In this document: piece after piece, positions 6,035 through 41,415 of the stretch
Numbering within the stretch: the stretch's first letter is position 1
Layout of the letters: the number at the start of each line of letters is the position of its first letter
NCBI GenBank assembly: GCA_958434805.1
Contig: CAUBDX010000006.1
Span: 28,728-92,727, forward strand
Origin: an uncultured Phocaeicola sp.
GTDB lineage: Bacteria; Bacteroidota; Bacteroidia; Bacteroidales; Bacteroidaceae
Reading direction: 5' to 3'
DNA: 64,000 bases
Notes under the pieces: generated by a model
The model's input: only the letters and a program-made list of their open reading frames with translations
What the model was told of the DNA's origin: nothing
The model's database searches: none
Program-made: the position numbers and the translations under genes

Positions 6035-7048
6035 GAAAGTAACAAGCAGCCCTTTATGGTCGGTCGGCCAAACCCCTTGGGGCAACAGGAATTTATCTTT
6101 CGATTTGCTCGGCACCCGTTCGTTGTATGAAATGCTTCCTTCCGGACCGAACACAATCGCTTCCTTAAGTTTCAGTGACGGATGTGGATAATAAAACACA
6201 TAGTCAATACGTTCACGCTCATCGGCTTTCGGTGCCCAAGTCAGTTTTTCTAACGGCATCAGCGGATTGTCAGCAGGGAATGTAAATCCGGGATAATTTA
6301 CAACGTCAGGATAAAGCGTACGATAGGTGTCGATAAAGCCAGCATTGTCAAGAAGCAACGGAACAGTCCAGGGCACAATAAGTCCGTGGTGGTCAAACAG
6401 ATCTTTTGTTTCACGGGTCCAGTCCAGATGAGAAGGCTCGTTAAAATCACCACCCAATATGACAAGGGTTCCCCGGGCTATATCCTTGCGTGCTTCTTCA
6501 ATAAAGCAACGGATGGCATCATCGCGCAAAGATGCATCATTCACCTGCAAGACCTCAAGCACGGTCTGAGGGATAGGAATCTCTTTCCAAGTGGAACCAT
6601 CGTATCCACGCACATTGTAATAAGCATCGTTCAGATAATCCAGATGGGCTGTATAAACCGCTATCTCCTGATTGCCGATCCGGGATTTCATCTTGTAGAT
6701 ACTCCCGTGGTCATTGTTTTCGGGATATACAGTCAGGGAATCCGTGATAGGATGCCGGCTCAGCAACCCGGAATCATAGCTGTAGAATGAATAATAGGTT
6801 TCTCCAAATTGCTTCAGCGACTCTACAATCCGGTCACAAAACCTTGTCTGGTTATAGTTCCTTACCTCACTGAAAGTAACAAAATCCGGTTTCAGGCGCA
6901 CAATTTCCTGAACAATGGCATCATATCCTCCTTCCACAACGGTACCTTCCTGCCAGATGTTCCATTGCAGCACCGTAAAATTCTTTTGCCGGGCCGATAT
7001 ATTCAAGGCACAGCAAATCACACAAAACAAAGCAATTAATTTTTTCAT
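6020..7048 (-). CDS. Secreted endonuclease/exonuclease/phosphatase-family protein
   Basis: From ATG 7048 the protein (342 aa) starts with a signal peptide (MKKLIALFCVICCALNISA); the longer reading from 7069 would need a TTG start. It has the EEP order of motifs: VLQWNIWQ, then DFVTFSEV (metal Glu), a middle AVYTAHLDY, ILGGDFNEPSH, and a terminal WPTDHKGLLVTF with the catalytic Asp-His. Members hydrolyse phosphodiesters (nucleic acids, sphingomyelin, inositol phosphates) and the substrate is not evident. It faces GH89 tail to tail and diverges from the GH109-like gene upstream. A periplasmic or surface location is inferred from the signal peptide. Confidence 0.85.
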   Translation of the reverse strand: MKKLIALFCVICCALNISARQKNFTVLQWNIWQEGTVVEGGYDAIVQEIVRLKPDFVTFSEVRNYNQTRFCDRIVESLKQFGETYYSFYSYDSGLLSRHPITDSLTVYPENNDHGSIYKMKSRIGNQEIAVYTAHLDYLNDAYYNVRGYDGSTWKEIPIPQTVLEVLQVNDASLRDDAIRCFIEEARKDIARGTLVILGGDFNEPSHLDWTRETKDLFDHHGLIVPWTVPLLLDNAGFIDTYRTLYPDVVNYPGFTFPADNPLMPLEKLTWAPKADERERIDYVFYYPHPSLKLKEAIVFGPEGSISYNERVPSKSKDKFLLPQGVWPTDHKGLLVTFSLEQ

Positions 7049-7122
7049 CCTCTTGTTTATTTTCTCCAATAGTTATCCAAAATCAGCCTTCATAATGAAG
7101 GAAGATGAACAGCCACTCAAAA

Positions 7123-7166
7123 TCTCACCGCAAATCAGTAGTAGGAAAACCCGATTTGCGGTGAGA
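7123..7166. repeat. 14-bp perfect inverted repeat in a divergent intergenic region
   Basis: TCTCACCGCAAATC (7123-7136) pairs perfectly with GATTTGCGGTGAGA (7153-7166) across a 16-nt loop. It lies between the divergent EEP and GH109-like genes, so it could be an operator. On the minus strand the stem is followed by TTTT, so a terminator is also possible. Confidence 0.5.
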
Positions 7167-7293
7167 AAGAAGGCAGCTGTCATCCATGCAAAAATAGAAA
7201 AACCGAAGAAATATGCCAAGATTTAACTCACTTAAAGAGTACAGTTCAAACACTTTTTTCACTTCCTTCTGTCTGGGATGCTTAATATTCCAA

Positions 7294-7866
7294 TTGTCGC
7301 AAGCATGACAAAAACTTCATTTTTCATACAGACTTGAAAAGATAATGATAAAATCTTATAGCTTTGCATGCGGAAATCAAGAACGACAGAAATGAAAACA
7401 ATAAAAACGGTTTTAATAGGAGCCGGCTACCGGGGAATGCGGCTGCTGCGTCTGATGAAACAGATTCATGCTTACCGCATCACTGCGCTGTTCGACCCTT
7501 CGTCTGAGCTTCTGCCGGAAGAAAAAATCGAACGATTCTCCGGCGAGACAAACGGGTATAAGGAAATGATTCTCCGCCACCGCCCCGACCTTGTGGTCAT
7601 TGCCTCTCCGTGGAAATGGCATGTTGAGCAGGCTATGTATGCCTTGGAGCAAGGTTGCCATGTGGCTCTTGAAATAAAGGGAGGACTGAAAACAGATGAA
7701 TACTGCCCGCTGATTTCACTTGCCGAACAGAAAGGCTTGCGCATCTATCCGCTGGAGAACACGGTGTTCATGCGTGAAAACATGGCAATGCTGAATCTGG
7801 TACAAGCCGGAGTATTGGGCGACTTGGTTGCCCTTCGCGGAGGATACCGGCACGATTTGCGCGATA
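7294..7866 (+). repeat. Direct repeat, left copy (573 bp), border of the PUL island
   Basis: This segment recurs at 21357-21918. By eye the two copies differ only by an 11-bp deletion in the right copy (GAGCAGGCTAT, left 7626-7636) and one silent A/G change (7679 against 21731). It starts 98 bp upstream of the GH109-like start codon and ends inside that gene at CGCGATA. The sequences diverge completely on both outer sides, so the borders are sharp. Confidence 0.95.
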
Positions 7867-7901
7867 CAGCATATTTTTGGAAACAACGTAAAATCCATTA
7901 A
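7392..7901 (+). pseudogene. GH109-like Gfo/Idh/MocA protein, 5' half only (left copy)
   Basis: The N-terminal Rossmann domain is present (ATG 7392, TVLIGAGYRGMRLLRLMKQ, then DLVVIASPWKWHVEQA), but homology ends at the repeat border 7866 and the frame closes after a short foreign tail (TAYFWKQRKIH). About 160 of an expected 378 residues remain, so the C-terminal domain with the substrate pocket is lost. The frame here is intact, unlike the right copy. A protein of this length should bind NAD at best. The complementary damage in the two copies is described at 21455-22580. Confidence 0.9.
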
Positions 7902-7973
7902 AAAGCTAGGGGAGGGGGGTACATTATCAATCGTCATTTCCCATAAGCACATGATGACGAGCGTTATGAATAG

Positions 7974-8000
7974 GAAGGTTCAGTTTAACCCTGAACCTTC
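7974..8000. terminator. 10-bp perfect hairpin just inside the island
   Basis: GAAGGTTCAG (7974-7983) pairs with CTGAACCTTC (7991-8000) over a 7-nt loop. There is no clear T-run on either side, so termination is only likely. The rest of the 7902-8271 gap holds AT-rich sequence and the promoter-like box at 8118; no gene is seen. Confidence 0.45.
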
Positions 8001-8117
8001 TTGAAGTTAAAATTTCGAACGATTTTACCGATGCAAAACACCTAAAATGCAGCTAAAAGTTACTCCTGAGTTTATTCTTTAACTGAAAAAAATATTGGTA
8101 AGCTCATTTTAATTACC

Positions 8118-8125
8118 TATTTTTG
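8118..8125 (+). promoter_or_regulatory. Bacteroides -7 box before the sigma-factor gene
   Basis: TATTTTTG fits TAnnTTTG, the -7 consensus of the primary Bacteroides sigma factor. A convincing TTTG at the -33 position is not seen. The box sits about 150 bp upstream of the ECF sigma start. Confidence 0.4.
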
Positions 8126-8271
8126 TATTTTTAACAGCATTTTTACTTTCCATTGTAAATCTGTTTTATTCTCCCCTCTAAATTACGAAGAAAATTTGAA
8201 TTACTGTTACTTTCCATCCTCTTTATTAAAATAAGTGGAAAAATTAGTTACTAAATAGAAAAGAGACACGA

Positions 8272-8844
8272 ATGAAAAAACTCCAACCAGACATTGTATC
8301 ATTTAACCAACTTTACCGAGATTTCGAAAAACGCTTTATGCGATTTGCCAACTCATATGTAAAAGATGAATCGGTAGCAGAAGACATTACCATTGATTCC
8401 ATGCTGTATTATTGGGAGAACCGTGATTCCTTAAATGATGAAACAAACGTTCCAGCATACATTTTGACAACTATCAAGAGCAAATGTCTTAACTACTTGC
8501 GTCACGAGCGTATCTGTGAGAACTACTCGGAACAAGCTAAGGCATATTATGAATGGGAATTAAACACCCGCATCAACACACTTGAAGCTTGCGAGCCCTA
8601 TGAATTGTTGACCAATGAAATTCAGGAATTAGTTGACAAGGCATTGAATGAAATGCCCGAAAAAACCCGAAAAGTTTTCACGTTAAACCGGTATGAAGAC
8701 AAAACCTATAAAGAGATAGCCCTACTCATGGGAATATCAGATAAAGGAGTTGATTTCCACATCCAAAAAGCCCTAAAACTCCTTCGCAAGCATCTAAAAG
8801 ACTATTTTCCACTTTTTCTTTATTATTTTCTAAAAAGTCACTAG
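8272..8844 (+). CDS. ECF-type RNA polymerase sigma-70 factor of the PUL
   Basis: A 190-residue protein with sigma region 2 (FNQLYRDFEKRFMRFANSYV, then EDITIDSMLYYWENRD) and region 4 (ALNEMPEKTRKVFTLNRYED, then YKEIALLMGISDKGVDFHI), the helix-turn-helix that reads the -35 element. It belongs to the Bacteroidales group that works with a FecR anti-sigma and a SusC transducer. The next gene, 55 bp downstream, is that FecR, and the SusC that follows carries the signalling STN domain. By analogy, ligand passage through SusC frees this factor to switch on the SusCD operon. Confidence 0.92.
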   Translation: MKKLQPDIVSFNQLYRDFEKRFMRFANSYVKDESVAEDITIDSMLYYWENRDSLNDETNVPAYILTTIKSKCLNYLRHERICENYSEQAKAYYEWELNTRINTLEACEPYELLTNEIQELVDKALNEMPEKTRKVFTLNRYEDKTYKEIALLMGISDKGVDFHIQKALKLLRKHLKDYFPLFLYYFLKSH

Positions 8845-8899
8845 GAAGTCTTTCGTATGAAGTGCTATTCATATACAGGGAACTAAAAAAACCAAGATT

Positions 8900-9835
8900 A
8901 TGAATAGAGACACATTACATCGTTTTTTTGCAGGAAAGCTATCCATGCAAGAGGGATTATCCATCAAACAATGGATGGAATCTTCCAAAGAAAACGAACG
9001 TATCTTTCTACAAGAAAGACGTTTGTTTGATGCACTCTTGCTACACGATGAACACAAACAGATGCAACCCACACGCAACTTCCAACTTCGCAAACTGGCA
9101 TTAGAATGCATGAAAGTAGCAGCAGTAGCTCTCTTGACTTTGGCCTGTTATGGTCTCTATCAAAATATGCAATGGAACAACGAAGAGGTAAAAATGTACA
9201 CGGTTTCCGTCCCTGCAGGACAAAGAACACATCTTACGCTCCCAGATGGAACTACTGTATGGCTTAACGCACGCACAACACTTAGCTACCCGACCAGTTT
9301 CAACAGCAATGAACGTACGGTATTCTTACAGGGAGAAGCCTATTTTGAAGTAAGCAAAAACCTCCACAAGCCTTTTATTGTCCAAACTCAACAATACAAT
9401 ATTGAAGTACTAGGCACAAAATTTGATGTGGAAGCCTATCCTGACAGCAAGAATTTTGAAACCACCCTCATGCAAGGAAGCGTAAAAGTATCATCCCCTC
9501 AAAATCCCGAGCAGAGCCTCACACTAAAGCCTAACGAGAAAGTATTCCTAAAAGATGGCGTACTTACTTCTACCCAAGTAAGTGACTTCTCCTCTTACCG
9601 TTGGAAAGAAGGACTTATCTGCTTCAAGAACATCCCCTTTGAATATGTAATGGAAGAGTTTGAAAAATACTATGGAATGAAAATTGTTGTAAAGAATAAA
9701 TCTGTCCACTCCTATTCATATACGGGAAAATTCCGTCAGACTGATGGCATAGATTATGCACTTAATGTACTCCAGCGAGACATATATTTCAATTACGAAA
9801 AAGATACAGAAAATCAAATCATCTATATTAATTAA
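8900..9835 (+). CDS. FecR-family anti-sigma factor
   Basis: A 311-residue protein with an N-terminal cytoplasmic part that should hold the sigma factor, one membrane segment at about residues 70-90 (VAAVALLTLACYGLYQ), then the periplasmic FecR domain (QRTHLTLPDGTTVWLNART, VFLQGEAYFEVSKN) and a C-terminal DUF4974-like domain (FKNIPFEYVMEEFEKYYGMK). The periplasmic end would touch the SusC STN domain. Order and spacing with the sigma gene are standard for a host-glycan PUL. Nothing looks damaged. Confidence 0.92.
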   Translation: MNRDTLHRFFAGKLSMQEGLSIKQWMESSKENERIFLQERRLFDALLLHDEHKQMQPTRNFQLRKLALECMKVAAVALLTLACYGLYQNMQWNNEEVKMYTVSVPAGQRTHLTLPDGTTVWLNARTTLSYPTSFNSNERTVFLQGEAYFEVSKNLHKPFIVQTQQYNIEVLGTKFDVEAYPDSKNFETTLMQGSVKVSSPQNPEQSLTLKPNEKVFLKDGVLTSTQVSDFSSYRWKEGLICFKNIPFEYVMEEFEKYYGMKIVVKNKSVHSYSYTGKFRQTDGIDYALNVLQRDIYFNYEKDTENQIIYIN

Positions 9836-9977
9836 CACTTAAAAACAAAAAAGCCAATGAAGAACAAACACCGATAACTCTAAACAAGAAGAATGCCGGC
9901 TAGTGTCACAACACCCACCGGCTAAGATTCAATAACAATTATTCCTATTTAAATTTATATTAAATCAATACTAAGGT

Positions 9978-12900
9978 ATGAAAAAAAACACTTTGTCGGG
10001 GGTATATTTTACTAAAAATCCCCGATTTAAACAAATCTTTAGAACCATGCGAATTTCCACGTTCCTGCTGATGGCCGGGGCATTATGTTCCTATGCTGAA
10101 AATGCGCACTCCCAAAATGTAAAGGTCAGCCTACAAATGAATCAGGTAAAACTGGACAAAGTTCTGAACGAAATCGAAAACCAAACAGATTATCTTTTCA
10201 TTTACAACAATCAGGTAAATACCAACAAGGTAACTTCTGTCAATGCCAAAAATGAAACGGTAGCTAAAGTCCTAGACAAAATGCTAGATGGGACCGGCAT
10301 ACGATACGAACTAGCTGGTGAACACATCATTTTAACGACAGAGACTACACCAACTACTTCTGTTGCACAGCAGACAAATACTATCACGGGGCAAGTCGTA
10401 GACACCAATGGTGAAAGTATCATTGGCGCTAATGTACGCATAAAAGGAACGACAATAGGTACAATTACAGATCTAGACGGTAAATTCACACTTGATGCAG
10501 ACAGCAAAGCTATTATTGAAATTTCCTACATCGGTTATCTTACACAGGACATTGCACTGAACGGGAAAAAGACTTTGCGTTGTGTACTCAAGGAAGATAC
10601 CAAAACATTAGATGAAGTTGTAGTCGTAGGGTATGGCGTTCAGAAAAAAGCAGATTTGACTGGCTCTGTAGCCAACATCGGTGCCGACAAATTAACGACA
10701 CAAAGCAACACCAACATCGGCCAAGCGCTACAAGGTAAAATTGCAGGTGTGGACATCGTGTCACAGGGCGGCGCACCAGGATCAGGTGTACGCATCATGG
10801 TTCGCGGCATTGGTACACTCAACAATGCCAGTCCTTTGTATATTGTTGATGGCATGTACATGGGCAGTATCGACCACCTCAATCCAAACGACATTGAAAG
10901 CATTGATGTACTGAAAGATGCATCTTCTGCAGCTATTTATGGTTCACGTGCTGCAAATGGAGTCATTATTGTTACCACTAAATCAGGTTCCAACACTGAA
11001 GGAAAACCGATTATTGATGTTTCAGCCAACATCGGACTACAAACTCCCTCGAAATATCTTGACATGCTGAATGCCGAAGATTGGGCACGTTTAACAACGG
11101 AATCAAGAAAAGCTATAGAAGCCAAGCCGCTTGAAATGAGCCAGAACATGAAGGAAGACAATGACTGGCAAGATATCATGATGGGACCAGCTCTTATACA
11201 AAACTACAATCTGACCGTACGTGGTGGAACCAAATACTTCACCTATTACACAGGCTTGGGATATATTAATCAAGATGGGACTATTAAAGGAACTAACTTC
11301 GAACGTTTCAATGCCCAATTCAAGTCGGAATACAAACGTGGATTCTTCACATTTGGAAATAATGTAGTCTTTTCGGCCTACAAAGACAACCCCTTGTACG
11401 GATACGCACGTGGCGGCTACATAGGTATTATCTTGCAATCAATCCCATCTCTCCAAAAGTTCGACCCGGAAAATGACAAAGGCGGCTACGGTAAGGTATA
11501 TGGTGATGCTACAGATATCCCTAACCCGCTGGGAATTCTCGATGAAAACCTTACCCAACGTAAATCCAATACCTACAATGCCTATATCAACCTTTATGCA
11601 GAGTTGAAGCTTCCATTTGGCTTGAAATACAGGTTAAATGCAACGCCAGACTTTTCGTTTGACCGCAACACAGCCTATGAAAACATTTTTGACTTTGGGT
11701 TACGTAACAATATGGTTTCCAACATGCAGGAATACCGATACAACCGAAACAATTTCTTAATTGAAAACCTGTTGTCTTTCGACAAAACCTTTGGTAAACA
11801 TAAGGTAACAGCATTGCTGGGCTATTCTTTCCAAGAATATCATTCACGTTACATTATGGCTTCAGGTAAAGGGCTTCCTAACGGAATCCACGAAGTTGGA
11901 GCAGCTACCAAGGACCGAATGAACCATACAGAAAAAAAAGAAAGCGCAATGACCTCGATTATTTCGCGTGTGTTCTATTCTTATGATAACCGCTATCTGT
12001 TGACAGCTACCTATCGCCGCGACGGTTCCTCTAAATTTGCTAAGGGTAACCGATACGGACATTTTCCATCCGTATCAGTAGGGTGGAACGTGGCTGAAGA
12101 AAAGTTCATGAAAGGTACTCGCAATTGGCTGGATCAGTTCAAGCTACGCGGTGGTTACGGTATCTTAGGTAATCAAGAGATATCTGACTATATGTACACC
12201 AGCGTTATCACTTCAAACATCAACTACCCTGATGGTAACGGCAACCTCTATAATGGTGCATTCCCAAAAGAATTTGCCAATCCTGCTATTAAGTGGGAGG
12301 AAACAGCCATGACCAATGTGGGTGTAGACCTGGCTTTTTTTAATTCGCGACTAAGTGTTACAGCCGACTGGTACCGAAAGGACACCAAGGATATCCTACT
12401 TACCGTTCCCATCCCTGTATCTACAGGCGGAGCCAATGATCCAGTGCGCAATGCGGGTAAAATCAAGAATACAGGCTTCGAATGGACTGTGAATTGGAAT
12501 GACGCCCCTACTAAAGATTTTTCTTATGGATTAACTTTCACAGGAAATGCCATGAAGAACAAGGTTGTAGCTATGGGTGACGCCAATCAAGTAATTGAAG
12601 GTGGAGCCAATCGTACAGGAGTAGCCACAACACGTACCCTTGCCGGATATCCAATCGGTGGTTTTTGGTTGATTCCTACTGATGGTCTCTTCCAGAACGA
12701 AGAAGAAATCAATGCACATTCTTTGGATGGCAGCAAAATACAGCCCAACGCCAAGCCTGGAGATATTCGCTTTATTGATACGAACAAAGATGGCAAGATT
12801 ACCAATGCCGACCGCGTATACAAAGGCAGTCCATTCCCCAAACTTACCATGGGACTTAACTTCAATGCATCCTATAAAGGCTTTGATTTTCTGGTAGGTC

Positions 12901-13334
12901 TGCAAGGCGTATTCGGAAACAAGATTTACAATGCTACCCGTCTGGAACTCGAAGGAGTAGACAAAGGAACCAACTTCCTTTCATCTACATTAGACTATTG
13001 GACACCTGAGAACCGTGATGCTTCACACCCACGTCTAGTTTGGGATGACCCCAATCAAAATAACCGCCCGAACAGTGACCGATTCCTTGAAAACGGATCG
13101 TTCCTGCGCTTACGAAGTGTGCAGATAGGCTACACCTTCCCGAACCATTGGTTCCAAGACAAAATCCAGAAACTGCGTGTATATGTAAATGCAGAAAACT
13201 TATTCACAATTACCGACTACAGCGGTTATACACCAGACATTAACAATGCCGAGAGTGCTACTTCGCGAGGATTTGACAATTTTGTATACCCGACCAACCG
13301 TGTGTTCATGCTTGGTCTTAATCTTTCATTCTAA
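9978..13334 (+). CDS. SusC/RagA TonB-dependent outer-membrane transporter with STN domain
   Basis: An 1118-residue protein. An N-terminal extension and signal segment (RISTFLLMAGALCSYAENAH) precede an STN signalling domain (KVSLQMNQVKLDKVLNEIE) at about 48-120, a carboxypeptidase-D-like domain from about 134 (TITGQVVDTNGESIIGANVR), the TonB box and plug (DEVVVVGYGVQKKADLTGSV), and a long beta-barrel ending NRVFMLGLNLSF. It should import an oligosaccharide across the outer membrane with SusD and signal to FecR. The 142-bp gap before it contains only a weak GCCGG/CCGGC inverted repeat (about 9894-9924). It is intact, with full barrel length. Confidence 0.95.
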   Translation: MKKNTLSGVYFTKNPRFKQIFRTMRISTFLLMAGALCSYAENAHSQNVKVSLQMNQVKLDKVLNEIENQTDYLFIYNNQVNTNKVTSVNAKNETVAKVLDKMLDGTGIRYELAGEHIILTTETTPTTSVAQQTNTITGQVVDTNGESIIGANVRIKGTTIGTITDLDGKFTLDADSKAIIEISYIGYLTQDIALNGKKTLRCVLKEDTKTLDEVVVVGYGVQKKADLTGSVANIGADKLTTQSNTNIGQALQGKIAGVDIVSQGGAPGSGVRIMVRGIGTLNNASPLYIVDGMYMGSIDHLNPNDIESIDVLKDASSAAIYGSRAANGVIIVTTKSGSNTEGKPIIDVSANIGLQTPSKYLDMLNAEDWARLTTESRKAIEAKPLEMSQNMKEDNDWQDIMMGPALIQNYNLTVRGGTKYFTYYTGLGYINQDGTIKGTNFERFNAQFKSEYKRGFFTFGNNVVFSAYKDNPLYGYARGGYIGIILQSIPSLQKFDPENDKGGYGKVYGDATDIPNPLGILDENLTQRKSNTYNAYINLYAELKLPFGLKYRLNATPDFSFDRNTAYENIFDFGLRNNMVSNMQEYRYNRNNFLIENLLSFDKTFGKHKVTALLGYSFQEYHSRYIMASGKGLPNGIHEVGAATKDRMNHTEKKESAMTSIISRVFYSYDNRYLLTATYRRDGSSKFAKGNRYGHFPSVSVGWNVAEEKFMKGTRNWLDQFKLRGGYGILGNQEISDYMYTSVITSNINYPDGNGNLYNGAFPKEFANPAIKWEETAMTNVGVDLAFFNSRLSVTADWYRKDTKDILLTVPIPVSTGGANDPVRNAGKIKNTGFEWTVNWNDAPTKDFSYGLTFTGNAMKNKVVAMGDANQVIEGGANRTGVATTRTLAGYPIGGFWLIPTDGLFQNEEEINAHSLDGSKIQPNAKPGDIRFIDTNKDGKITNADRVYKGSPFPKLTMGLNFNASYKGFDFLVGLQGVFGNKIYNATRLELEGVDKGTNFLSSTLDYWTPENRDASHPRLVWDDPNQNNRPNSDRFLENGSFLRLRSVQIGYTFPNHWFQDKIQKLRVYVNAENLFTITDYSGYTPDINNAESATSRGFDNFVYPTNRVFMLGLNLSF

Positions 13335-13348
13335 TAACTGCAACAACA

Positions 13349-14869
13349 ATGAAAACTTATAAGTTAATAACATTAGCCCTGATGGCCCTGATGATGGGCA
13401 GCTGTGAAGGCAAATTGGAAATCGACAATCCCAACAAACCAACTGATAAGACTTTTTGGAAAACAAAAGACGATTTTCAACAAGCAATCACCTCTTGTTA
13501 CACACCACTAAAGAACTGGAACGGTGGTTATTACGGTACTCGTGGATTGATGACTCGAATCAGCCGTGCAGACGACATTGAATTCCGCAACGACATTCAA
13601 GACATCTATTCTATGCACCGCTTCACCAATGATCCCAACAATGGTGTAACACAGAACATATTCTATCAGTTCTATAATGCAATCTACCGCGCCAACTCCA
13701 TTCTTAAAGAAATTGAAGGGAAAGATTTTGGCAGCGAATTTTCTGACCAAGTCAGAGGTGAAGCACTATTCATCCGAGGCATGTATTATTTCCAACTAGC
13801 TAAAGAATTTGGGAACGTACCTTTGCGCTTGACTGCATCACAAGACCCTGCCACCTTTCAGTTGGCAAAGTCGGATCAGAAAGATGTCTATGCCCAAGCC
13901 GAAAAAGATTTCATTAAAGCAGCTAAACTTCTTCCCTTAACCAACGCCAAGGGAAAGCCGACCAAAGGAACATCTTTCGCTTATCTAGGAAAATTGTATG
14001 TATACCAAGAAAGATGGCAGGAAGCCAAGGATGTGCTCGAACCACTCACCCGCTCACCTTACACCTACAAATTAGTGGACGATTTCACCTGGAACTTCGA
14101 TGAGGAACATGAAAACAATGAAGAAAGCATCTTCGAAATACTTTATGAACCGGTTGGCGGTTCGAATCAGTGGGACAATGGTGAAACAGCCAACTCGGCA
14201 CAGTCAACAACCATTGCCGTAGAATATGCAGCAGGTGAAGTTGGAGGATGGTTTGAAGCCAAACCTACCCAAAAAATGATGGATATCTTCCTTAAAGAAA
14301 GAGCAGCTAATGGTGATTACGACTACCGTGCCCTGACGTCTGTAGCATGGGATTATCCTGGATGCATGTACTACAAGCGCCCCATTCAAGAGGTGTTTAA
14401 AAACAACCAAGAAGCATTAAAATCATATTGGATTCTGAAATATCAAAATTCACGGACACGTGAACAGGAAGTAGAGACACTACCGTCTTACATCAATGAG
14501 CGCGCTATGCGTTTTGCAGATGTCATCCTATTATTGGCTGAATGTGAGCTGAACCTAGGCGGTAGCGGTATTCCTACAGCTATTCAATACATCAACCAGA
14601 TTCGCACACGTGGTGGAAACCTGCTCCCTTATAGCGGTGCAACTGATGCTGTTTCCGTAAAGAACGAGCTCATTCACCAACGTGCCATAGAATTCTTCAA
14701 GGAAGGGGAACGCTTCTATGACCTGCGCCGTTGGGGACTACTTGAAAAAGCATTGGAAGAGCAAGACCCATTACGTTTTGCCAATTTCAAGAAACGTCAT
14801 TACTACCTACCTATTCCGTCTAAGGAAATCCAAACGAATTTGCTATGTACCCAAAATGAAGGTTGGTAA
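13349..14869 (+). CDS. SusD/RagB nutrient-binding lipoprotein
   Basis: 506 residues with a lipoprotein signal peptide ending at the lipobox GSC (MKTYKLITLALMALMMGSCE). The SusD fold is seen in its TPR-like segments (YNAIYRANSILKEIEG, GEALFIRGMYYFQLAKEFG) and the closing FADVILLLAECELNLGG, IQYINQIRTRGG and FYDLRRWG motifs. It caps the preceding SusC and captures glycan at the cell surface. It lies 14 bp after SusC and 30 bp before the GH123-like enzyme, so one transcript is likely. The ligand cannot be told from sequence. Confidence 0.95.
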   Translation: MKTYKLITLALMALMMGSCEGKLEIDNPNKPTDKTFWKTKDDFQQAITSCYTPLKNWNGGYYGTRGLMTRISRADDIEFRNDIQDIYSMHRFTNDPNNGVTQNIFYQFYNAIYRANSILKEIEGKDFGSEFSDQVRGEALFIRGMYYFQLAKEFGNVPLRLTASQDPATFQLAKSDQKDVYAQAEKDFIKAAKLLPLTNAKGKPTKGTSFAYLGKLYVYQERWQEAKDVLEPLTRSPYTYKLVDDFTWNFDEEHENNEESIFEILYEPVGGSNQWDNGETANSAQSTTIAVEYAAGEVGGWFEAKPTQKMMDIFLKERAANGDYDYRALTSVAWDYPGCMYYKRPIQEVFKNNQEALKSYWILKYQNSRTREQEVETLPSYINERAMRFADVILLLAECELNLGGSGIPTAIQYINQIRTRGGNLLPYSGATDAVSVKNELIHQRAIEFFKEGERFYDLRRWGLLEKALEEQDPLRFANFKKRHYYLPIPSKEIQTNLLCTQNEGW

Positions 14870-14899
14870 ACAACCTTCATTTTGATAAAAAAACAAATA

Positions 14900-16717
14900 A
14901 TGAATCAATTGAGAATAATAACATATTTACTTCTTTGCAGTGCCATAACAGGCACTGCAAGCATAGCACAAGACAAAATTGGAGTCACACATTCTGGTCA
15001 CCTAACCGGACAGGCACCCTTTCCAATTACAACCTACAATGAATTGGAAAACCCAGTAGCATCAGATGCTAAGATTTGGAGTAAAGTAAAAGAAGTAAAG
15101 CTAAGCTGGGGCTGCAAAGACACCCGGTATAAAAAAGAAGAACCTGCACCCATTCAGCATCTCAACCACAGCATTGACCTTGTAGCATGGCGTGGAGAGC
15201 GTGTATCGGCACAATGGGTTATATGGGGCAACCGTACTCTCGAAAATCTATCCTTCAACATTTCGGAATTAACCCATAGAGACCAAACACATAAAATTGG
15301 TAAACAAGCACTGCTGACCGGATTTGTTCGCTATGTATTGACTGACGAACTCAACAAAGACAAACGCGGCGGATGCGGGGCACGTCCGGATGCCGCTCTA
15401 TATGACTCTACCTTAGTAGCTGATCCTATTGACCATCTGACCAAACAGTTGACCATAGAAAAACATACGAGTCAAGGTGGCTGGGTGCGCATATGGGTAC
15501 CTCGCGATGCCCAGCCTGGATTTTACCAGGGCTTTGTGACTGTCAAAGACCAACAGGGAGAAATCGGTAAACTTAAGATTCGATTGCAGGTAAAGGATCG
15601 GACCCTCCCCGAGCCAAAGGACTGGGCTTTTCACTTAGACCTTTGGCAAAACCCCTTCGCTATCGCTCGTTATCATCAAGTAGAACCTTGGAGTAAGGCG
15701 CATTTTGAATGTATGCGCCCCTATATGGAAATGTATCGCGATGCAGGAGGCAAGGCCATTACCGCATCCATTATGCACAAACCATGGAACGGTCAGACCT
15801 ACGATTTCTTCGAAACCATGATTACTTGGATGAAGAAGGCTGATGGCACATGGAGCTTTGACTACACGGTATTTGACCGTTGGGTGAAATTTATGATTGA
15901 CTTGGGTATACAAAAGGAAATCACTTGCTATTCGATGATTCCCTGGAAGCTCTCATTCCAGTATTATGACCAAGCAACTAATACCCTGCGTGAAATAAAA
16001 GCCAAACCAGGAGAACAGGCATTCGAAGATCTTTGGTTACCGATGTTGAAATCCTTTGCCGCCCATCTCAAAGAGAAAGGGTGGTTCTCGATTGCTCATA
16101 TTTCCATGGACGAACGCCCTATGCCTGACATGAAAGAAACCATCAAAGTCATTCGCAAAGCAGACCCAAACTTCAAGATTTCATTGTCTGGAGCCTTGCA
16201 TGAAGAATTATCAGACGAACTGGATGACTATTGTGTAGCTTTGCGTATGAAACATTCCAACCAAATGAAAGCCAAGCGTAAATCTGAAGGAAAGGTTACC
16301 ACATTTTATACGAGTTGCGAAGAGCCTTACCCTAACACCTTTACTTTCTGCCCTCCAACAGAATGCGCATGGTTTGGATGGTATGCCGCCAAAGCAGAAC
16401 TTGACGGATATCTACGTTGGGCATACAACAGTTGGGTTATTGAACCCTTGCTAGACAGTCGATTCTATACTTGGGCTGCAGGTGATACCTATTTAGTCTA
16501 TCCAGGTGCCCGAACTTCCTTGCGATTTGAACATCTGATTGAGGGTATACAAGCATATGAAAAAATCAAGATACTCAAAGAAGAGTGTAAACATACCCAA
16601 AACAAGGCAAAGCTCAAAAAAATAGAAAAAATGCTGGAATTCTTTGACGAGCAAAAACTTCCTGAAACTCCTGCAGCTGTCCTTATTAAGCGAGGCAATA
16701 AGATACTGAATCAATAA
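14900..16717 (+). CDS. GH123-like (DUF4091) glycoside hydrolase
   Basis: ATG 14900 gives 605 residues with a signal peptide (MNQLRIITYLLLCSAITGTA); the longer frame would start at TTG. After an N-terminal beta-sandwich (about 1-235) comes a TIM-barrel catalytic domain of the family formerly called DUF4091. The adjacent Asp404-Glu405 in HISMDERPMP matches the Asp-Glu pair used in GH123 for substrate-assisted cleavage. GH123 enzymes remove beta-linked GalNAc, for example from glycosphingolipids. Here that activity is inferred from family only. A hairpin terminator follows at 16749. Confidence 0.8.
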   Translation: MNQLRIITYLLLCSAITGTASIAQDKIGVTHSGHLTGQAPFPITTYNELENPVASDAKIWSKVKEVKLSWGCKDTRYKKEEPAPIQHLNHSIDLVAWRGERVSAQWVIWGNRTLENLSFNISELTHRDQTHKIGKQALLTGFVRYVLTDELNKDKRGGCGARPDAALYDSTLVADPIDHLTKQLTIEKHTSQGGWVRIWVPRDAQPGFYQGFVTVKDQQGEIGKLKIRLQVKDRTLPEPKDWAFHLDLWQNPFAIARYHQVEPWSKAHFECMRPYMEMYRDAGGKAITASIMHKPWNGQTYDFFETMITWMKKADGTWSFDYTVFDRWVKFMIDLGIQKEITCYSMIPWKLSFQYYDQATNTLREIKAKPGEQAFEDLWLPMLKSFAAHLKEKGWFSIAHISMDERPMPDMKETIKVIRKADPNFKISLSGALHEELSDELDDYCVALRMKHSNQMKAKRKSEGKVTTFYTSCEEPYPNTFTFCPPTECAWFGWYAAKAELDGYLRWAYNSWVIEPLLDSRFYTWAAGDTYLVYPGARTSLRFEHLIEGIQAYEKIKILKEECKHTQNKAKLKKIEKMLEFFDEQKLPETPAAVLIKRGNKILNQ

Positions 16718-16748
16718 CCATTAAACTACAAGCTGTTTTAGTCGTTTC

Positions 16749-16791
16749 AAAGCCTCAGAGTTCCTGATAATCTCAGTGTCTCTGAGGCTTT
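16749..16791 (+). terminator. Rho-independent terminator after the GH123-like gene
   Basis: AAAGCCTCAGAG (16749-16760) pairs perfectly over 12 bp with CTCTGAGGCTTT (16780-16791), followed by TATAAAAT. It would separate SusCD-GH123 from the GH2 gene, or attenuate read-through into it. Confidence 0.75.
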
Positions 16792-16827
16792 TATAAAATC
16801 CGTTTAAACCAAATAAATACAATACCT

Positions 16828-19506
16828 ATGAAAAGAAGCTCTATTATATTCCTACTTGTCATTCTTTTGTTTATGACCAAGCAGGTACAGGGAGCATATC
16901 AACCTCAGTTTTCTACGGCAGGTTTTTATGAACTTCCCCACTCGGGACGAACTGTCTATTCACTGAATCCAGCCTGGCGTTTTTACAAAGGAAAAGTTTC
17001 TGGAGCAGAAGTACCAACCTTTGAGGATAGCCTGTGGAATGTTATTTCCCTACCTCACAGTCTGGAGTACCTACCCGTCGAAGCCAGCGGCTGCGTCAAC
17101 TACCAAGGCGAAGCCTGGTACCGCAAACATTTCACACCCGCCCCCGAACTGAAAGGGCAGAAACTATTTCTACATTTCGAAGCCATCATGGGCAAAAGCA
17201 AGGTCTTCGTCAACGGTCGGTTACTAGCCGAACATTACGGCGGATACTTACCCGTAGTGGTAGACGTAACCGATGCGTTACAATGGGACCGCGACAACGT
17301 GATCGCCGTATGGACCGACAACAGCAACGATCCCAATTACCCTCCCGGCAAAGCCCAGGAAGTTCTCGACTTCAGCTACTTCGGAGGTATCTACCGCGAC
17401 TGTTGGCTCATTGCCCATCGTACTGTTTACATCACCGACCCCAACCAAGCGCAGGAAACAGCCGGCGGCGGATTGTTCGTAGCCTACGATCAGGTATCGG
17501 AAGCCTCGGCCACCGTTCTGTTACAGACACAGGTACGCAATGAAAGCCACCAGGCCTTCCAGGGAGTCATCGAATATGAACTGCAACAGCCCGATGGACA
17601 TACAGCAGCTTTGGTAAGCACCAACTTCCGGGTGCAGTCTGGAAAAGCAGTCACCACCCGAGATAAAGTCACCCTGAAGACACCTCAACTCTGGAGTCCC
17701 GAACAGCCGAATCTCTATAACCTCTTTGTCCGCATCCGCGATACAAAAGGCCAGGTAGTAGACGGGTATCGCCGTCGCATCGGCATCCGCAGCATCGAGT
17801 TCAAAGGCAAGGACGGCTTCTGGCTCAACGGAAAGCCCTACGGCCAACCCCTCATCGGTGCTAACCGTCACCAGGATTTTGCCCTCATTGGCAATGCGCT
17901 TTCCAACGGCTTGCACTGGCGTGATGCCAAGAAACTGCGCGATGCCGGGCTTAAGGTCATCCGCAATGCTCATTGTCCACAGGATCCCGCCTTCATGGAT
18001 GCCTGCGATGAACTGGGACTATTTGTCATCGTCAACACCCCCGGCTGGCAATTCTGGAACGAAACGCCCGTCTTTGCCGAACGGGTGTACGATGACATCC
18101 GCCAGCTGGTCCGCCGCGACCGCAACCATCCTTGTGTCTGGCTATGGGAACCTATCCTGAACGAAACCTGGTATCCGGCCGACTTCGCCCAACGCACCCA
18201 GAACATCGTCCGTGAGGAATACCCTTATCCTTACTGTTATTCCGGCTGTGACAGCGAAGCCCGCGGACATGAATCTTATCCCGTACAATTTGCTCACCCC
18301 AGCAATGCTGACAAAGACTGGCCCCTACAGCAACTCGATCCGAAAGTAACTTACTTTACCCGTGAATGGGGAGACAACGTGGACGACTGGAACTCGCACA
18401 ACTCCCCCAGCCGGACAGCCCGCAACTGGGGCGAGCAAGCCATGCTGGTACAGGCACAACATTATGCTGCCCCCAACTATCCCTATACCAGCTACGATGC
18501 CCTCTATCGCACCCCTGCACAACACGTAGGCGGCTGCCTATGGCACTCATTCGACCACCAACGAGGTTACCACCCCGACCCATTCTATGGCGGTCTGATG
18601 GATGCATTCCGTCAACCCAAATATGCCTACTATATGTTCAAGGCCCAACGCAGTCCTGAGCCTCAGGAACACCTCTTTGAAACCGGTCCTATGGTGTATA
18701 TCGCCCACGAGATGACTCCCTTCTCACCGAAAGATGTCACCGTCTACTCCAACTGCGAAGAAGTGCACCTCATCTATAACCAAGGAGGAAAGACCTGGAC
18801 CTACACTCATCCGCAAACTTCAGAAGGCATGCCATCGCCCATTATTACGTTTAAAGACGTGTACGATTTCATGATAGACAAAAACCTGTCGATGCGGGAG
18901 CACAAACAGGAAGAAGTCTTCCTACGAGCTGAAGGAAGAATAGACGGAAAAATCGTTGCTACCCACGAAATACGTCCTGCCCGCCGTCCCGAAAAACTCC
19001 TGCTGTGGGTCGACCATGAAGGCATGGACTTGCAAGCCGACGGCTCCGACCTGGTAACTGTCATCGCTGCCGTAGCCGACAAGAACGGGAACATCAAGCG
19101 ACTAAACAATTACCGCATCTTGTTCCAGGTGGAGGGCGAAGGACGTATACTCGGCGATGCCCATATCGGCGCCAATCCCGCACCGGTACAATGGGGTACC
19201 GCTCCGGTTCTGATTCAATCAACATTGAAACCCGGCAAAGTCCGCGTTATAGCCAGCGTATGGTGGAAAGGCTCACAGATGCCAACCAGTGCTGTATTGG
19301 AACTAGAAAGCAAACCTGCCGCCCATCCCATGATTTATTCAACAACAGAAGCTGCACATATCCCACTACACAACCTATCCAAGGAAAAGTCTACTGCCAA
19401 ACTTCCTGCTATTGACCTAGAAGCCGAACAGCGCCAAAAAGCGGAAAATGACCTTAAGCTAAAGGAAGTAGAACAGCAACAGGCTGACTTTGGAGAAAAG
19501 AAATAA
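16828..19506 (+). CDS. GH2 beta-galactosidase-like enzyme
   Basis: 892 residues with a signal peptide. Domains run: sugar-binding jelly roll (WRFYKGKVSG, WYRKHFTP), Ig-like domain, GH2 TIM barrel (LIGANRHQDF, KVIRNAHCPQDP), then C-terminal beta domains. Acid/base Glu446 is in the LNE of WEPILNETW and the probable nucleophile Glu513 is in TREWGDN, which replaces the common SEYG. The protein ends in an unusual charged helix rich in Lys, Glu and Gln from about residue 865. GH2 covers beta-galactosidase, glucuronidase and mannosidase, so the specificity is open. The gene is GC-richer in its middle (from about 17050) than at its ends, which may reflect recombination. Confidence 0.85.
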   Translation: MKRSSIIFLLVILLFMTKQVQGAYQPQFSTAGFYELPHSGRTVYSLNPAWRFYKGKVSGAEVPTFEDSLWNVISLPHSLEYLPVEASGCVNYQGEAWYRKHFTPAPELKGQKLFLHFEAIMGKSKVFVNGRLLAEHYGGYLPVVVDVTDALQWDRDNVIAVWTDNSNDPNYPPGKAQEVLDFSYFGGIYRDCWLIAHRTVYITDPNQAQETAGGGLFVAYDQVSEASATVLLQTQVRNESHQAFQGVIEYELQQPDGHTAALVSTNFRVQSGKAVTTRDKVTLKTPQLWSPEQPNLYNLFVRIRDTKGQVVDGYRRRIGIRSIEFKGKDGFWLNGKPYGQPLIGANRHQDFALIGNALSNGLHWRDAKKLRDAGLKVIRNAHCPQDPAFMDACDELGLFVIVNTPGWQFWNETPVFAERVYDDIRQLVRRDRNHPCVWLWEPILNETWYPADFAQRTQNIVREEYPYPYCYSGCDSEARGHESYPVQFAHPSNADKDWPLQQLDPKVTYFTREWGDNVDDWNSHNSPSRTARNWGEQAMLVQAQHYAAPNYPYTSYDALYRTPAQHVGGCLWHSFDHQRGYHPDPFYGGLMDAFRQPKYAYYMFKAQRSPEPQEHLFETGPMVYIAHEMTPFSPKDVTVYSNCEEVHLIYNQGGKTWTYTHPQTSEGMPSPIITFKDVYDFMIDKNLSMREHKQEEVFLRAEGRIDGKIVATHEIRPARRPEKLLLWVDHEGMDLQADGSDLVTVIAAVADKNGNIKRLNNYRILFQVEGEGRILGDAHIGANPAPVQWGTAPVLIQSTLKPGKVRVIASVWWKGSQMPTSAVLELESKPAAHPMIYSTTEAAHIPLHNLSKEKSTAKLPAIDLEAEQRQKAENDLKLKEVEQQQADFGEKK

Positions 19507-19532
19507 AGAATTTAAATAAACTAGTAAACTAC

Positions 19533-20413
19533 ATGATATATCTTTTAAACTTTTTACTTTGTTTTACTATCAGCCTTGCAGATAGCAAAGCGCAAAACTC
19601 CATCATTAAGCTATTTCCTCAAGGAGCACCTAACGAACAGATTTCCCTAAAGGAAAAGCTGCATAACAACGGCAATAAAATAGGAGGAAAAACAGTATTA
19701 CGCATCACAGACGTCAGTACTCCTACCCTCACTATTTATCCAGCAAAAGCAGATTTAGCCACAGAAACAGCTATTATTGTATGCCCAGGAGGTGGCTATA
19801 ATTAGCATATGATTTGGAAGGAACAGAAATTTGTGAATGGCTCAACAATCAGGGAATAACAGCTTGTCTACTAAAGTATCGAGTTCCTCGTCGTGCCAAC
19901 CGATTAAAACATGAAGCTCCCCTGGAAGATCTTCAACAAGCCATCCGTTACATTCGTATCCATGCTAACAATCTACACATAAAGTCTAACCAAATAGGTG
20001 TAATCGGGTTCTCTGCGGGTGCACATCTTGCTGCAATGGCCAGTAATTGTTTCACTACAAAAAGTGATTCAGCTATTGAAGCTAAAGAGCCTATTAACTG
20101 TCGACCAGATTTTTGCATGCTCATCTATCCCGCCTATCTAGATGGCACAAACTTTCAAGTAGCAAAAGACATTCACGTTTCATCTGAAACACCTCCCACT
20201 TTTCTGATTCAGGCAAAAGACGATGAAAACTATATCAACAGCAGCCTATTCTACTACTATGCACTGAAGGCTAACAAGGTTCCTGCGGAGCTACATCTGT
20301 ACAGTAGTGGCGGACACGGATATGGCATACGAAATACTGCGCATCCTGTTAATGAGTGGCCCTATAGAGCTATCACATGGCTTAGTAATCTGGGACTTCT
20401 AAACAAACTATAA
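19533..20413 (+). pseudogene. Acetyl-esterase-like alpha/beta hydrolase, frameshifted
   Basis: Two frames make one gene. The first (ATG 19533) runs through a signal peptide to IIVCPGGGYN and hits TAG at 19803. The second picks up at once with LAYDLEGTEICEWLNNQG, which is how the family normally continues (GGGY-x-LAYDxEG). The gap fits loss of one base near 19800. The oxyanion motif PGGGY, the nucleophile motif GFSAGAHLA and the late Asp/His regions (IQAKDDENY, SSGGHGYG) are all present, so a one-base repair would give a plausible carbohydrate acetyl-esterase of the PUL. As written, full-length protein is not made unless frameshifting occurs. Confidence 0.85.
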
Positions 20414-20421
20414 CATATTAT

Positions 20422-20469
20422 ACAACCGAGGATGACACTACCTGTATGGATGATATAATCCTCGGTTGT
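20422..20469 (+). terminator. Terminator at the end of the PUL genes
   Basis: ACAACCGAGGAT (20422-20433) pairs perfectly with ATCCTCGGTTGT (20458-20469), followed by TTTAT. It closes the island's coding part. Confidence 0.8.
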
Positions 20470-20590
20470 TTATATTCATAATCCTTAAGCTATAGTAAAT
20501 AGTAATAAGCAGTCAAAAGACAGAATAAGTCATGATTAGGAATACTAATCCTTCATTTCAGTAAGCCGCCGAAAAGCCTCTTGCAAAATC

Positions 20591-20975
20591 TCCGGTCATC
20601 CCAATGGGTTCGGCATCGTATCCAGCGCTAACCGCCACTTATCAAACAGGATCTCCAACTCGTCCATGGTATACTTGAATTTAGGCATTTCCACGTAGAG
20701 GTAAGTCCTGCTTGTCATAAAAATCTTTTGGGAATCCAAATCCATCAGTCTTACTTCCTCAAAAATACGAATCGGCATCTCCCTTGGTGTTGACGATGTC
20801 CAGAATACCGATATTGCAGATACCCACCGGGAAACCAATACAAGTAGAATAATACACGCTGCGGGCTTGAAAAAGCGTGACACCCCCCAACTAAATCTCA
20901 ACCAGCAGTCTTTCTCCCGGTTCAGTTTCGAACACACAGCCGTAGGTATTGGAAGGAAACAGATTTCATAATCTG
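20591..20975 (-). pseudogene. Remnant of an Rpn / PD-(D/E)XK transposase-family nuclease
   Basis: On the minus strand, pieces of an Rpn-type protein can be read across stops and frame changes: VFETEPGERLLVEI, then ARSVYYSTCIGFPVGICNIG, then in another frame SRTYLYVEMPKFKYTMDELE and FDKWRLALDTMPN. In the family these are the catalytic VEIQ strand, the YYS(T) helix and the YLEMPKF-x-DKW tail. At least two frameshifts and a stop kill it. It lies between the PUL and the right direct repeat. Such genes are frequent in Bacteroidales variable regions, so it supports a history of rearrangement. The rest of 20976-21356 shows no gene. Confidence 0.75.
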
Positions 20976-21356
20976 ATATTTTTATGATATCAAGGAGATT
21001 ACTGAGACTGTAAAGAAAGCTGTGTTTTTCTATAAGACTAAACAACTTGACATGAGTATCCATAGGATGATACCTCAGGAGGCTGCCACTCATACAGGCG
21101 AAATAAAGAAAGGATAAACCAGTTATAGAGATATTGCCATAAAAATATACAAACAGAGAACATCATTCCCTATAAATGTCTATATTTGAGAGCATAAGTT
21201 GTTCTATAAAGGCACTGATGAAGATCCTATTGGGACCTACCTTTTCCATAGGATGACAAGAAACTTTAGGATAACAAACTATAGGGATAAGATAGAGAAG
21301 TCAACAGACTTCAGATTTAATGTAAAAATAGTCAACCTTTTTTAGGCTAAGACGGG

Positions 21357-21918
21357 TTGTCGCAAGCATGACAAAAACTTCATTTTTCATACAGACTTGA
21401 AAAGATAATGATAAAATCTTATAGCTTTGCATGCGGAAATCAAGAACGACAGAAATGAAAACAATAAAAACGGTTTTAATAGGAGCCGGCTACCGGGGAA
21501 TGCGGCTGCTGCGTCTGATGAAACAGATTCATGCTTACCGCATCACTGCGCTGTTCGACCCTTCGTCTGAGCTTCTGCCGGAAGAAAAAATCGAACGATT
21601 CTCCGGCGAGACAAACGGGTATAAGGAAATGATTCTCCGCCACCGCCCCGACCTTGTGGTCATTGCCTCTCCGTGGAAATGGCATGTTGTATGCCTTGGA
21701 GCAAGGTTGCCATGTGGCTCTTGAAATAAAAGGAGGACTGAAAACAGATGAATACTGCCCGCTGATTTCACTTGCCGAACAGAAAGGCTTGCGCATCTAT
21801 CCGCTGGAGAACACGGTGTTCATGCGTGAAAACATGGCAATGCTGAATCTGGTACAAGCCGGAGTATTGGGCGACTTGGTTGCCCTTCGCGGAGGATACC
21901 GGCACGATTTGCGCGATA
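21357..21918 (+). repeat. Direct repeat, right copy (562 bp), border of the PUL island
   Basis: Same sequence as 7294-7866 less 11 bp. The unit continues here without a break into the rest of the GH109-like gene, so this right copy is joined to the 3' half while the left copy is joined to the island. The enclosed unique sequence is 7867-21356 (13,490 bp). Confidence 0.95.
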
Positions 21919-22580
21919 TGCTGATTGACGAGCGGGGGATTCCGGGAAATCCTCATAAACCTGAGGGTATATGGAGAAGCCGGTTTTATCTGGAAGAGAA
22001 CGGGGACCTTTATCCTACACACGGACTGGCACCTCTCTGTCTGGCTGCCGGAGTGGGACGAACCGACCGGATTACTGAACTCACCTCGTTTGCCTCACGG
22101 GCTTGTGGCTTGAAAGAACTGATAGCCCGCCGGGGAGGTGACTCCTCACTGAAGGTTGCCATGGGTGACATCGTGATTACACAAATGCGCACCGCTGCCG
22201 GCATATTGATTACTCTGACACACGACACCACTTTGCCTCGCCCGCGAAGCCTGGACTTTGAGCTGCAAGGGTCGAAAGGAATCTGGCGCGGAGAGTTCCG
22301 ACAAATTTACATCGAAGGAGTATCTCCTGATGAGGCTTGGGAGGACGACGGAAAATACATCGAACGCTTTGAACATGTCTTCTGGAGACAATGGGGAGAA
22401 GAAGCTCTGAAGCACGATGTGCATCATCGGGGCATGGACTATATCATGCTACGCGCACTGGCTGCCGATATGCAAGGGGAAGCCGTATATCCGGCAACGG
22501 GTGAAGACCTGGCTTTATGGACTTCAATCACGCCTCACTCCAAATTATCTATTGCAGAAAAACGAACGGTTTTCTTTTAA
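21455..22580 (+). pseudogene. GH109-like oxidoreductase-fold glycosidase, frameshifted by an 11-bp deletion (right copy)
   Basis: From ATG 21455 the frame is correct until about 21686, where the left copy has 11 extra bases; here the frame shifts and stops at 21724. The remaining gene is in the other frame to TAA 22580. Adding 11 bp gives 379 codons, a normal length. The C-terminal half carries GH109 hallmarks: YPTHGLAPL, THDTTLPRPRS, LQGSKGIW and HHRGMDYI. GH109 enzymes use bound NAD to remove alpha-GalNAc, and many have signal peptides; this one has none, so it may be cytoplasmic. Without frameshifting or recombination with the left copy no full protein is made. Confidence 0.88.
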
Positions 22581-22629
22581 AACCCGAAACAGAGTGAGGA
22601 AAAACAGAATTTTCTCCGATCGTTTTTCA

Positions 22630-22688
22630 AAACAAAAGCTTTGGCTGTATAAACAAAGGCTTTGTTTTTACAGCCAAAGCTTTTGTTT
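22630..22688. terminator. Perfect 20-bp hairpin with a nested palindrome
   Basis: AAACAAAAGCTTTGGCTGTA (22630-22649) is exactly complementary to 22669-22688. The loop contains a second palindrome, AAACAAA-GGC-TTTGTTT (22651-22667). It lies between the GH109-like gene and the alcohol dehydrogenase and would serve as a strong terminator. The stem is long enough to fold as a cruciform as well. Confidence 0.8.
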
Positions 22689-22828
22689 ATAGAAACAGAG
22701 TCTCTGTTTTAAGAATACATCCCGAAAGGTGCATGTTTTTATACCGCTAACCGGAAGATTCCGGCACAAGAACGAAAGTTTTTTCTCAAATCGAAGCCAC
22801 TCTCTGCCTGCGAAACGGGAAATAATTG

Positions 22829-22836
22829 TATTTTTG
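22829..22836 (+). promoter_or_regulatory. -7 box for the alcohol dehydrogenase
   Basis: TATTTTTG fits the Bacteroides TAnnTTTG box and lies 39 bp before ATG 22876. The -33 TTTG is not clear. Confidence 0.5.
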
Positions 22837-22875
22837 TCGTATAATCATTTTAACTTAAACGCAAATTTCAGAACC

Positions 22876-24021: not shown

Positions 24022-24078
24022 TGAAAAGGACAAAAGAACTTATTTCATCTTTTTCAGACAGAAGAACAGAAGAAAATA

Positions 24079-24456
24079 TGGAAATAGAAAGTCTGATAAA
24101 AACCATTATTCAATGCGCCTATTAATGTAAGAATGCATCTTGCCGCGGGTTTTCTTGAAAACGTCTATCAGAAAGCACTGATAATCGAATTAAAGGAAAA
24201 AGGTATCCATGCAGATATAGAAACACCTATAAATGTATATTACAAAAATGAAGTCGTGGGAGAATTCAGAGCAGACATAATCGTAGAAGGAGAAATAATC
24301 GTCGAACTTAAAGCGGTGCAGCATCTCCTTCCCATACACGAAACCCAATTAGTAAATTACTTAACCGCTACTCATACAGACCACGGCTTATTAATAAACT
24401 TTGGAGGTGAACGCATTGAAATAAAAAGAAAATTCAGAGAATATAAACATCCATAA
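24079..24456 (+). pseudogene. GxxExxY protein with a 5' frameshift
   Basis: The family signature GFLENVYQKAL (G-x-x-E-x-x-Y) and the PD-(D/E)XK-like core FRADIIVEGEIIVELKAV are intact. The usual N-terminus (MEIESLIKTIIQCAY) is also present from ATG 24079 but is cut off by TAA at 24124, just before VRMHLAAGF in the neighbouring frame, consistent with one inserted base. Translation from ATG 24133 would give a 107-residue protein lacking about 17 residues. The function of GxxExxY proteins is not established. Confidence 0.75.
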
Positions 24457-39800: not shown

Positions 39801-39939
39801 TGTTAGTTCTAAGTTTTTGAGTTTTTAAGTTTTTTGAGTTTGCAAGTTTGCAAGTTTTTGAGTTTGCAAGTTTTTGAGTTTGCAAGTTCTTATGTCCTTT
39901 TGTTCTTATGTCTAAAAAACTTTATGTCCTTATGTCCCC
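39801..39939. repeat. Degenerate GAGTTTTT/GAGTTTGCAAG repeat block, joined to TTATGTCC words
   Basis: About nine units of 9-10 bp (AAGTTTTTGAGTTTGCAAG) are followed by TTCTTATGTCCTTTTGTTC-type words. It fills the gap between ruvX and the MATE gene and is a member of family B, also at 41340, 42684, 42946, 57989, 58938 and 61385. No gene is seen in 39795-39970. Confidence 0.8.
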
Positions 39940-39970
39940 CAAAAAACACATCTCGCACAAAGTCGTCCAT

Positions 39971-41338: not shown

Positions 41339-41339
41339 T

Positions 41340-41384: not shown

Positions 41385-41415
41385 AAGATGATAAGTTGAC
41401 AAGACTTTCTTCATT

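Follow-up and report, generated by a model that had tools for sequence, protein, structure and literature searches.

The 64,000-nucleotide stretch of DNA analysed here (the window), from an uncultured Phocaeicola sp., carries a 13.5-kb polysaccharide utilization locus (PUL) that lies between two broken copies of a gene resembling the GH109 glycoside hydrolases (GH). We propose, with a probability of roughly 0.6, that this island and its flanking gene fragments are the residue of an illegitimate, microhomology-joined rearrangement around the GH109-like gene and the PUL, rather than a mobile element or a switch. An earlier note on the same DNA had instead read the locus as the product of a Campbell-type integration, and had suggested that it works as a reversible switch in which the island is present with the gene off, or lost with the gene on.

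The strongest repeat in the window, as detected by self-BLAST, is a direct pair on the plus strand at 7294-7866 and 21357-21918 (573 and 562 bp), whose members differ by one mismatch and one 11-bp gap. This repeat is not due to chance, since the longest non-self match in 10 mononucleotide shuffles of the window was 21-57 bp. Counted from an ATG at 7392, the left copy holds 98 bp of upstream sequence and the initial 158 codons of the GH109-like gene; its frame is open from this ATG or from another at 7368 and runs to a stop at 7899-7901, giving a truncated open reading frame (ORF; 7368..7901, plus strand) of 177 amino acids whose last 11 codons are foreign to the gene. The right copy is 11 bp shorter, with the gap located after about position 21687 and flanked by 2-bp repeats; because of this gap, the 5' frame that begins at ATG 21455 (21455..21724, plus strand) stops at 21722. 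The 3' half of the gene lies in a separate open frame (21654..22580, plus strand) that includes PF21252, and the single mismatch between the repeat copies (G at 7679, A at 21731) is synonymous. The earlier note's account of a duplicated 5' part, with the left copy lacking its 3' half and the right copy carrying an 11-bp deletion, is thus borne out by self-BLAST, by alignment and by the reading frames.

The gene pieces bear the Rossmann domain PF01408 and the GH109 C-terminal domain PF21252 in a Pfam scan, and an intact relative, P0001, aligns with 2ixa over 372 residues (E=2.8e-64); the combination of domains and 2ixa likeness that defines the GH109 family is therefore present, with the 2ixa match made by way of P0001. 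Codon phase is identical at 7866 and 21918, such that the left 5' half and the right 3' half are in phase, and a recombinant would have 378 codons plus a stop, in agreement with the 379-codon gene calculated earlier. Many intact relatives are likewise 378 amino acids long. Crossing over between the repeats would delete the island and leave an intact-looking GH109-like gene. Apart from this split 573-bp pair, self-comparison of the window reveals no repeat of at least 25 bp that links the two ends of the island.

The left edge of the island is the fossil of an insertion sequence (IS). From 7858 to approximately 8250, on the minus strand, the window contains the N-terminal part of a DDE transposase gene and the end of its IS, here termed IS-A (a full frame of this family is found at L071:1793-3226). 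The initial 370 bp from the left junction are 75% identical to three loci in two genomes of the genus (two in G009 and one in G026, among the matches listed), where the matching region comprises the end of the IS and the beginning of its transposase gene, which encodes DDE domains (PF13546, PF01609). In the window, this fragment is interrupted by stops in each of the three minus-strand frames and is truncated within the transposase. The cut falls within TGCGCGATA (7858..7866, plus strand), a 9-bp word that is found both in the right copy's unbroken GH109-like sequence and in the IS family, and the left junction is therefore a 9-bp microhomology join.

This junction recurs in a diverged relative. 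Searching with the truncated left ORF yielded, from 109 candidates, 22 proteins, of which six were inspected, and the best match, the metagenome protein P0121 (177 amino acids, 4 members), ends in the identical 11 foreign residues and differs from the window's left copy at 14 positions in the initial 165 residues. The left junction is therefore real and common to separate lineages, and probably predates the near-identity of the two copies in the window. Its persistence in the lineage of P0121, along with the presence of the gene's upstream region in the left repeat, pointing to the sigma factor gene about 0.4 kb downstream, would also fit a model in which the truncated copy is kept because its putative promoter drives the PUL's sigma and anti-sigma genes. 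We consider this improbable, as about 400 bp of IS debris lie in between and the P0121 cluster is so small.

The right copy of the repeat begins beside a second IS. The terminus of this element, IS-B (21330..21353, plus strand), is followed by GGG and then by the repeat at 21357, placing the start of the repeat 3 bp past the terminus. Allowing up to 2 mismatches, this 24-base word occurs at 14 places in 7 of the 61 genus genomes, as compared with one place for a reversed control; the base A follows the terminus in all 14 of these other copies, and beyond it their flanks diverge. The repeat is thus bounded by an IS end and a microhomology joint, and neither edge resembles a crossover core. The presence of IS remnants at each end of the island might also suggest that the PUL was brought in by two ISs as a composite transposon that split the gene. 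We reject this model as scarcely credible: IS-A and IS-B have different termini and share no significant stretch, where such a transposon would have the same IS at both ends, the left IS is cut internally, and the target duplications made by ISs are far shorter than 573 bp.

Repeats of 573 bp are longer than short reads, and one locus could have been mis-joined into two copies during assembly. We view such an error as highly improbable, given that the copies differ by one nucleotide and an 11-bp gap, that P0121 independently carries the left junction, and that the IS terminus at the right junction also occurs at other loci, although independent confirmation extends to the left junction only.

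We propose that the rearrangement unfolded as follows. At the left border of the PUL, the join at TGCGCGATA linked mid-gene sequence of a GH109-like copy to the interior of an IS transposase. This join may represent the novel joint of a tandem duplication, with the other PUL copy lost later, or else a deletion inside a longer duplication, and the direct repeat would be what remains of that duplication. The end of the second IS sets the upstream edge of the right repeat copy, presumably through IS insertion and decay. Homologous exchange would then have recently homogenised the two copies or imported a common allele, and the 11 bp missing from the right copy may have been lost after that, such that both copies are now broken. 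We infer this order of events (duplication or deletion, IS insertion and decay, homogenisation, 11-bp loss) from the arrangement of the present locus.

The proposed homogenisation draws on comparison with other alleles of the gene. A search with the 3' half identified 709 proteins at E<=1e-50 from 2700 candidates, of which the best 120 were listed; these include P0001, an intact protein of 386 amino acids that is 95% identical to the query and represents a cluster of 202 sequences, and P0002 (320 amino acids, 37 sequences), which begins within the gene. Between the window and P0001, 1 of 165 residues differs within the repeat and 14 of 221 beyond it (Fisher p=0.0029), with the first difference past the repeat at the sixth residue. 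In six other comparisons the 5' half diverges faster than the 3' half (12.7-31.8% vs 7.2-20.8%), significantly so at 0.05 in two of the six, with sequences shared among these comparisons so that they are not independent. This contrast between the 5' and 3' parts suggests recent homogenisation of the window's copies, or import of a common allele.

Several observations weigh against the history that we favour. Just upstream of the repeat the left copy has CAA, whereas GGG separates the right copy from IS-B; had IS-B simply inserted into a duplicated left flank, 2-3 bp would still have to be accounted for. The case for homogenisation is made with one cluster representative, at the protein level. 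When the broken right 5' frame was used as a query, 6 proteins were found from 9 candidates, and the window's 11-bp lesion was present in none of the four inspected (P0143-P0146): P0144, P0145 and P0146 carry frameshifts of their own, and P0143 is cut short. P0122 has a frameshift in its 3' half. These other broken forms, and the intact P0001, fit the favoured history, yet P0123 (P. coprophilus-like, 10 members) is frameshifted as well, so broken forms are not confined to this lineage; several are known from single short contigs only, and their lesions could be errors of sequencing. Finally, the ancestral order is unobserved among the relatives compared. The flanks themselves (6900-7420 and 20414-21480) have no match at E<=1e-3 in the 74 loci compared. 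Intact and broken GH109-like alleles both exist in other samples, and since cluster representatives hide their members, any excised form of this locus could sit unseen in the P0001 cluster.

In the Campbell-type account, a single crossover in the resident gene integrated a circle that bore the PUL together with the 5' fragment of a GH109-like gene, and the circle can be released again, such that presence of the island alternates with integrity of the gene. Its geometry is sound: the repeats are direct, the halves are in phase and their lesions are complementary, intact GH109-like genes exist elsewhere, and the difference between CAA and GGG upstream of the repeat is what two independent flanks would be expected to show. 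What the locus lacks is a defined element. Its edges are IS remnants, and a Pfam scan of eight island reading frames and two short pieces, with overlapping antisense ORFs left out, found no integrase, relaxase, replication protein or recombinase of any kind; the tested frames thus include none of the recombinase, transfer and replication genes that an integrative element would bring. This account also requires a prior circle in which the gene fragment was already fused to IS-A at the 9-mer, and it must accommodate both a left junction present in a second, diverged lineage and the decay of both sides. We consider it unlikely.

A reversible switch is not supported either. Programmed phase variation depends on a dedicated recombinase or a hypermutable tract; in the window, the gap is an 11-bp deletion between 2-bp repeats and is neither an invertible nor a simple-repeat tract. 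The locus is visibly decayed, with a broken esterase gene, an IS-A fragment, two broken GH109-like copies and transposase debris. Taken with the missing recombinase in the tested frames and the left junction shared with a diverged lineage, this decay argues against a switch. The repeats are nevertheless still a passive substrate on which ordinary homologous deletion could act. Such a deletion would take out the PUL and restore a gene that looks intact, and it would be one-way, barring the re-entry of a circle or of donor DNA. That the PUL is lost is plausible, and its regular regain is not supported. We also find very doubtful a recombination-gated trade-off, maintained in nature, in which the GH109-like enzyme is absent from cells with the GH123-containing PUL and returns once homologous exchange has deleted the PUL, with exchange of alleles between the copies preserving the option across strains.

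Judged by its domains, the island is an extracytoplasmic function (ECF) sigma/FecR/SusC/SusD/GH123/GH2/esterase PUL, with a SusC/SusD pair, a regulator and glycoside hydrolases as in ECF sigma/anti-sigma PULs generally. All of these genes lie on the plus strand: an ECF sigma factor (8272..8844, TIGR02985), a FecR-type anti-sigma factor (8900..9835), a SusC-like TonB-dependent transporter (9978..13334), a SusD-like protein (13349..14869), a GH123-domain protein (14882..16717), a GH2 protein (16828..19506), and an esterase-like alpha/beta-hydrolase gene (19533..20413) that is frameshifted at about 19.80 kb. Downstream, on the minus strand, a weak match to PDDEXK_2 (PF12784; 25.3 bits, cut-off 27.4) at 20596..21093 marks the remnant of a transposase-family gene. 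Beyond the island, right after the GH109-like stop codon, a 37-nt inverted repeat (22622-22696, arms 89% complementary with 1 nt between them) would form a strong hairpin. Rfam gave no RNA element near the repeats, returning only three sub-threshold microRNA-like matches to this hairpin (22.62-22.70 kb).

The chromosomal setting was compared with related genomes. The window's threonyl-tRNA synthetase gene, matched in 60 of the 61 genus genomes, reaches no more than 87% identity with any of them, and the window's species appears distinct from all 61. Downstream of the locus, genes for tRNA_SAD and NS-endonuclease proteins are adjacent in six relatives (L076, L081, L082, L083, L085 and L086), in which we read 13-18 kb of upstream sequence and searched for window proteins only; L084, a short contig end, stood outside this comparison. 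Neither the GH109-like gene nor this PUL lies at the corresponding position in any of the six, as judged by the window proteins searched, an absence that agrees with the proposed history, and L082 and L083 show no more than a SusC piece of 33% identity some 16 kb away. The iron-alcohol dehydrogenase gene is beside the tRNA_SAD/NS-endonuclease pair only in G016 (L076) among the six. More broadly, 17 of 399 genomes of the family have a strong match to the GH109-like protein (E<=1e-60), and when five GH109-bearing loci were searched with window proteins, another match was nearby only in L035 (a SusC-like piece, 43%), with L035-L037 each under 4 kb.

A plasmid or phage origin of the island was considered and rejected. 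In a close search with 1-25000, the plasmid records listed (15 of 25) match only 823-2347 or 3577-5811, and the sole phage record matches 20-2347, outside the island; in a distant search of 7600-15500 and 19500-24100, the matches listed (12 of 38 and 12 of 13 records, respectively) are short stretches of SusC/TonB receptor, alcohol dehydrogenase and one hydrolase. No relative emerged from scans of IMG/VR with three proteins.

The DNA upstream of the locus has affinities of its own. The region at 20-2400 contains a cupin gene, a radical SAM pair and a DUF5131 protein that hits the PADLOC candidate models PDC-M30B/M41B; within it, 823-2347 shares about 81% identity with stretches on plasmids of Bacteroides and Parabacteroides that are annotated 'radical SAM mobile pair' A/B, and a 5.5-kb contig labelled Bacteriophage sp. 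matches 20-2347 at 91% identity. Adjoining this region, a 468-bp stretch (3000-3467) is 96% identical to a place in G016, as against 78-87% for other genes, and is probably recently mobile DNA. A GH89 (NAGLU) gene at 3535-5811 has 88.8% DNA identity to a P. massiliensis record labelled plasmid, as compared with 87% for the best match of the threonyl-tRNA synthetase gene, and has possibly been transferred. In the conserved part of the window, 39811-42735 and 50716-59104 hold families of short dispersed repeats, 29-137 bp long and 79-100% alike.

The locus shares its logic with a laboratory assay in Deinococcus radiodurans, in which the 5' and 3' portions of a gene, overlapping by a few hundred bp, flank a kilobase-scale insert and a crossover rebuilds the gene. 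In the part of that work concerned with tetA reconstitution (PMC4627823), 438-bp repeats with a 1,479-bp spacer rebuilt tetA at a median of 6.5e-4 in wild type and at 8e-4 without RecA, repeat distance had no influence up to 10.5 kb, and mutations in one repeat lowered deletion frequency in a MutS-dependent manner, an effect that would apply to the window's repeats as well. By likeness to Deinococcus, homologous deletion between repeats of this size would be an ordinary event in Phocaeicola too. Unlike that engineered, selectable construct, the window's locus is natural, spans 13.5 kb, has lesions in both copies and is known from sequence. If deletion were demonstrated at a useful frequency, the locus would be a natural counterpart of such repeat-deletion assays, in which one glycan locus is traded for another enzyme.

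In gene content and order (sigma, FecR, SusC, SusD, glycoside hydrolases), the island resembles ECF sigma/anti-sigma PULs of Bacteroidota, and a related PUL in G061 (L073) has sigma, FecR, SusC, SusD and GH2 proteins at 58-76% amino-acid identity; unlike that PUL, the window also has GH123 and GH109-like genes, which match nothing in L073, and unlike these PULs generally its cluster is flanked by GH109-like fragments and IS remnants. The part of PMC11992087 that deals with BT4240-4250 of B. thetaiotaomicron links GH109, GH2 and a PUL, with the GH109 alpha-N-acetylgalactosaminidase BT4243 acting alongside a GH2 enzyme, and the window's PUL also encodes a GH2 protein. The GH109-like enzyme and the PUL of the window could thus serve related glycans, although, unlike BT4243, both window copies are broken and their assignment to GH109 is by sequence alone. 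Against these known systems, the locus offers a natural example of the way in which joining at microhomologies, decayed insertion sequences and recombinational homogenisation can shape PUL neighbourhoods in gut Bacteroidota, and a warning that complementary broken gene halves need not mean a switch.

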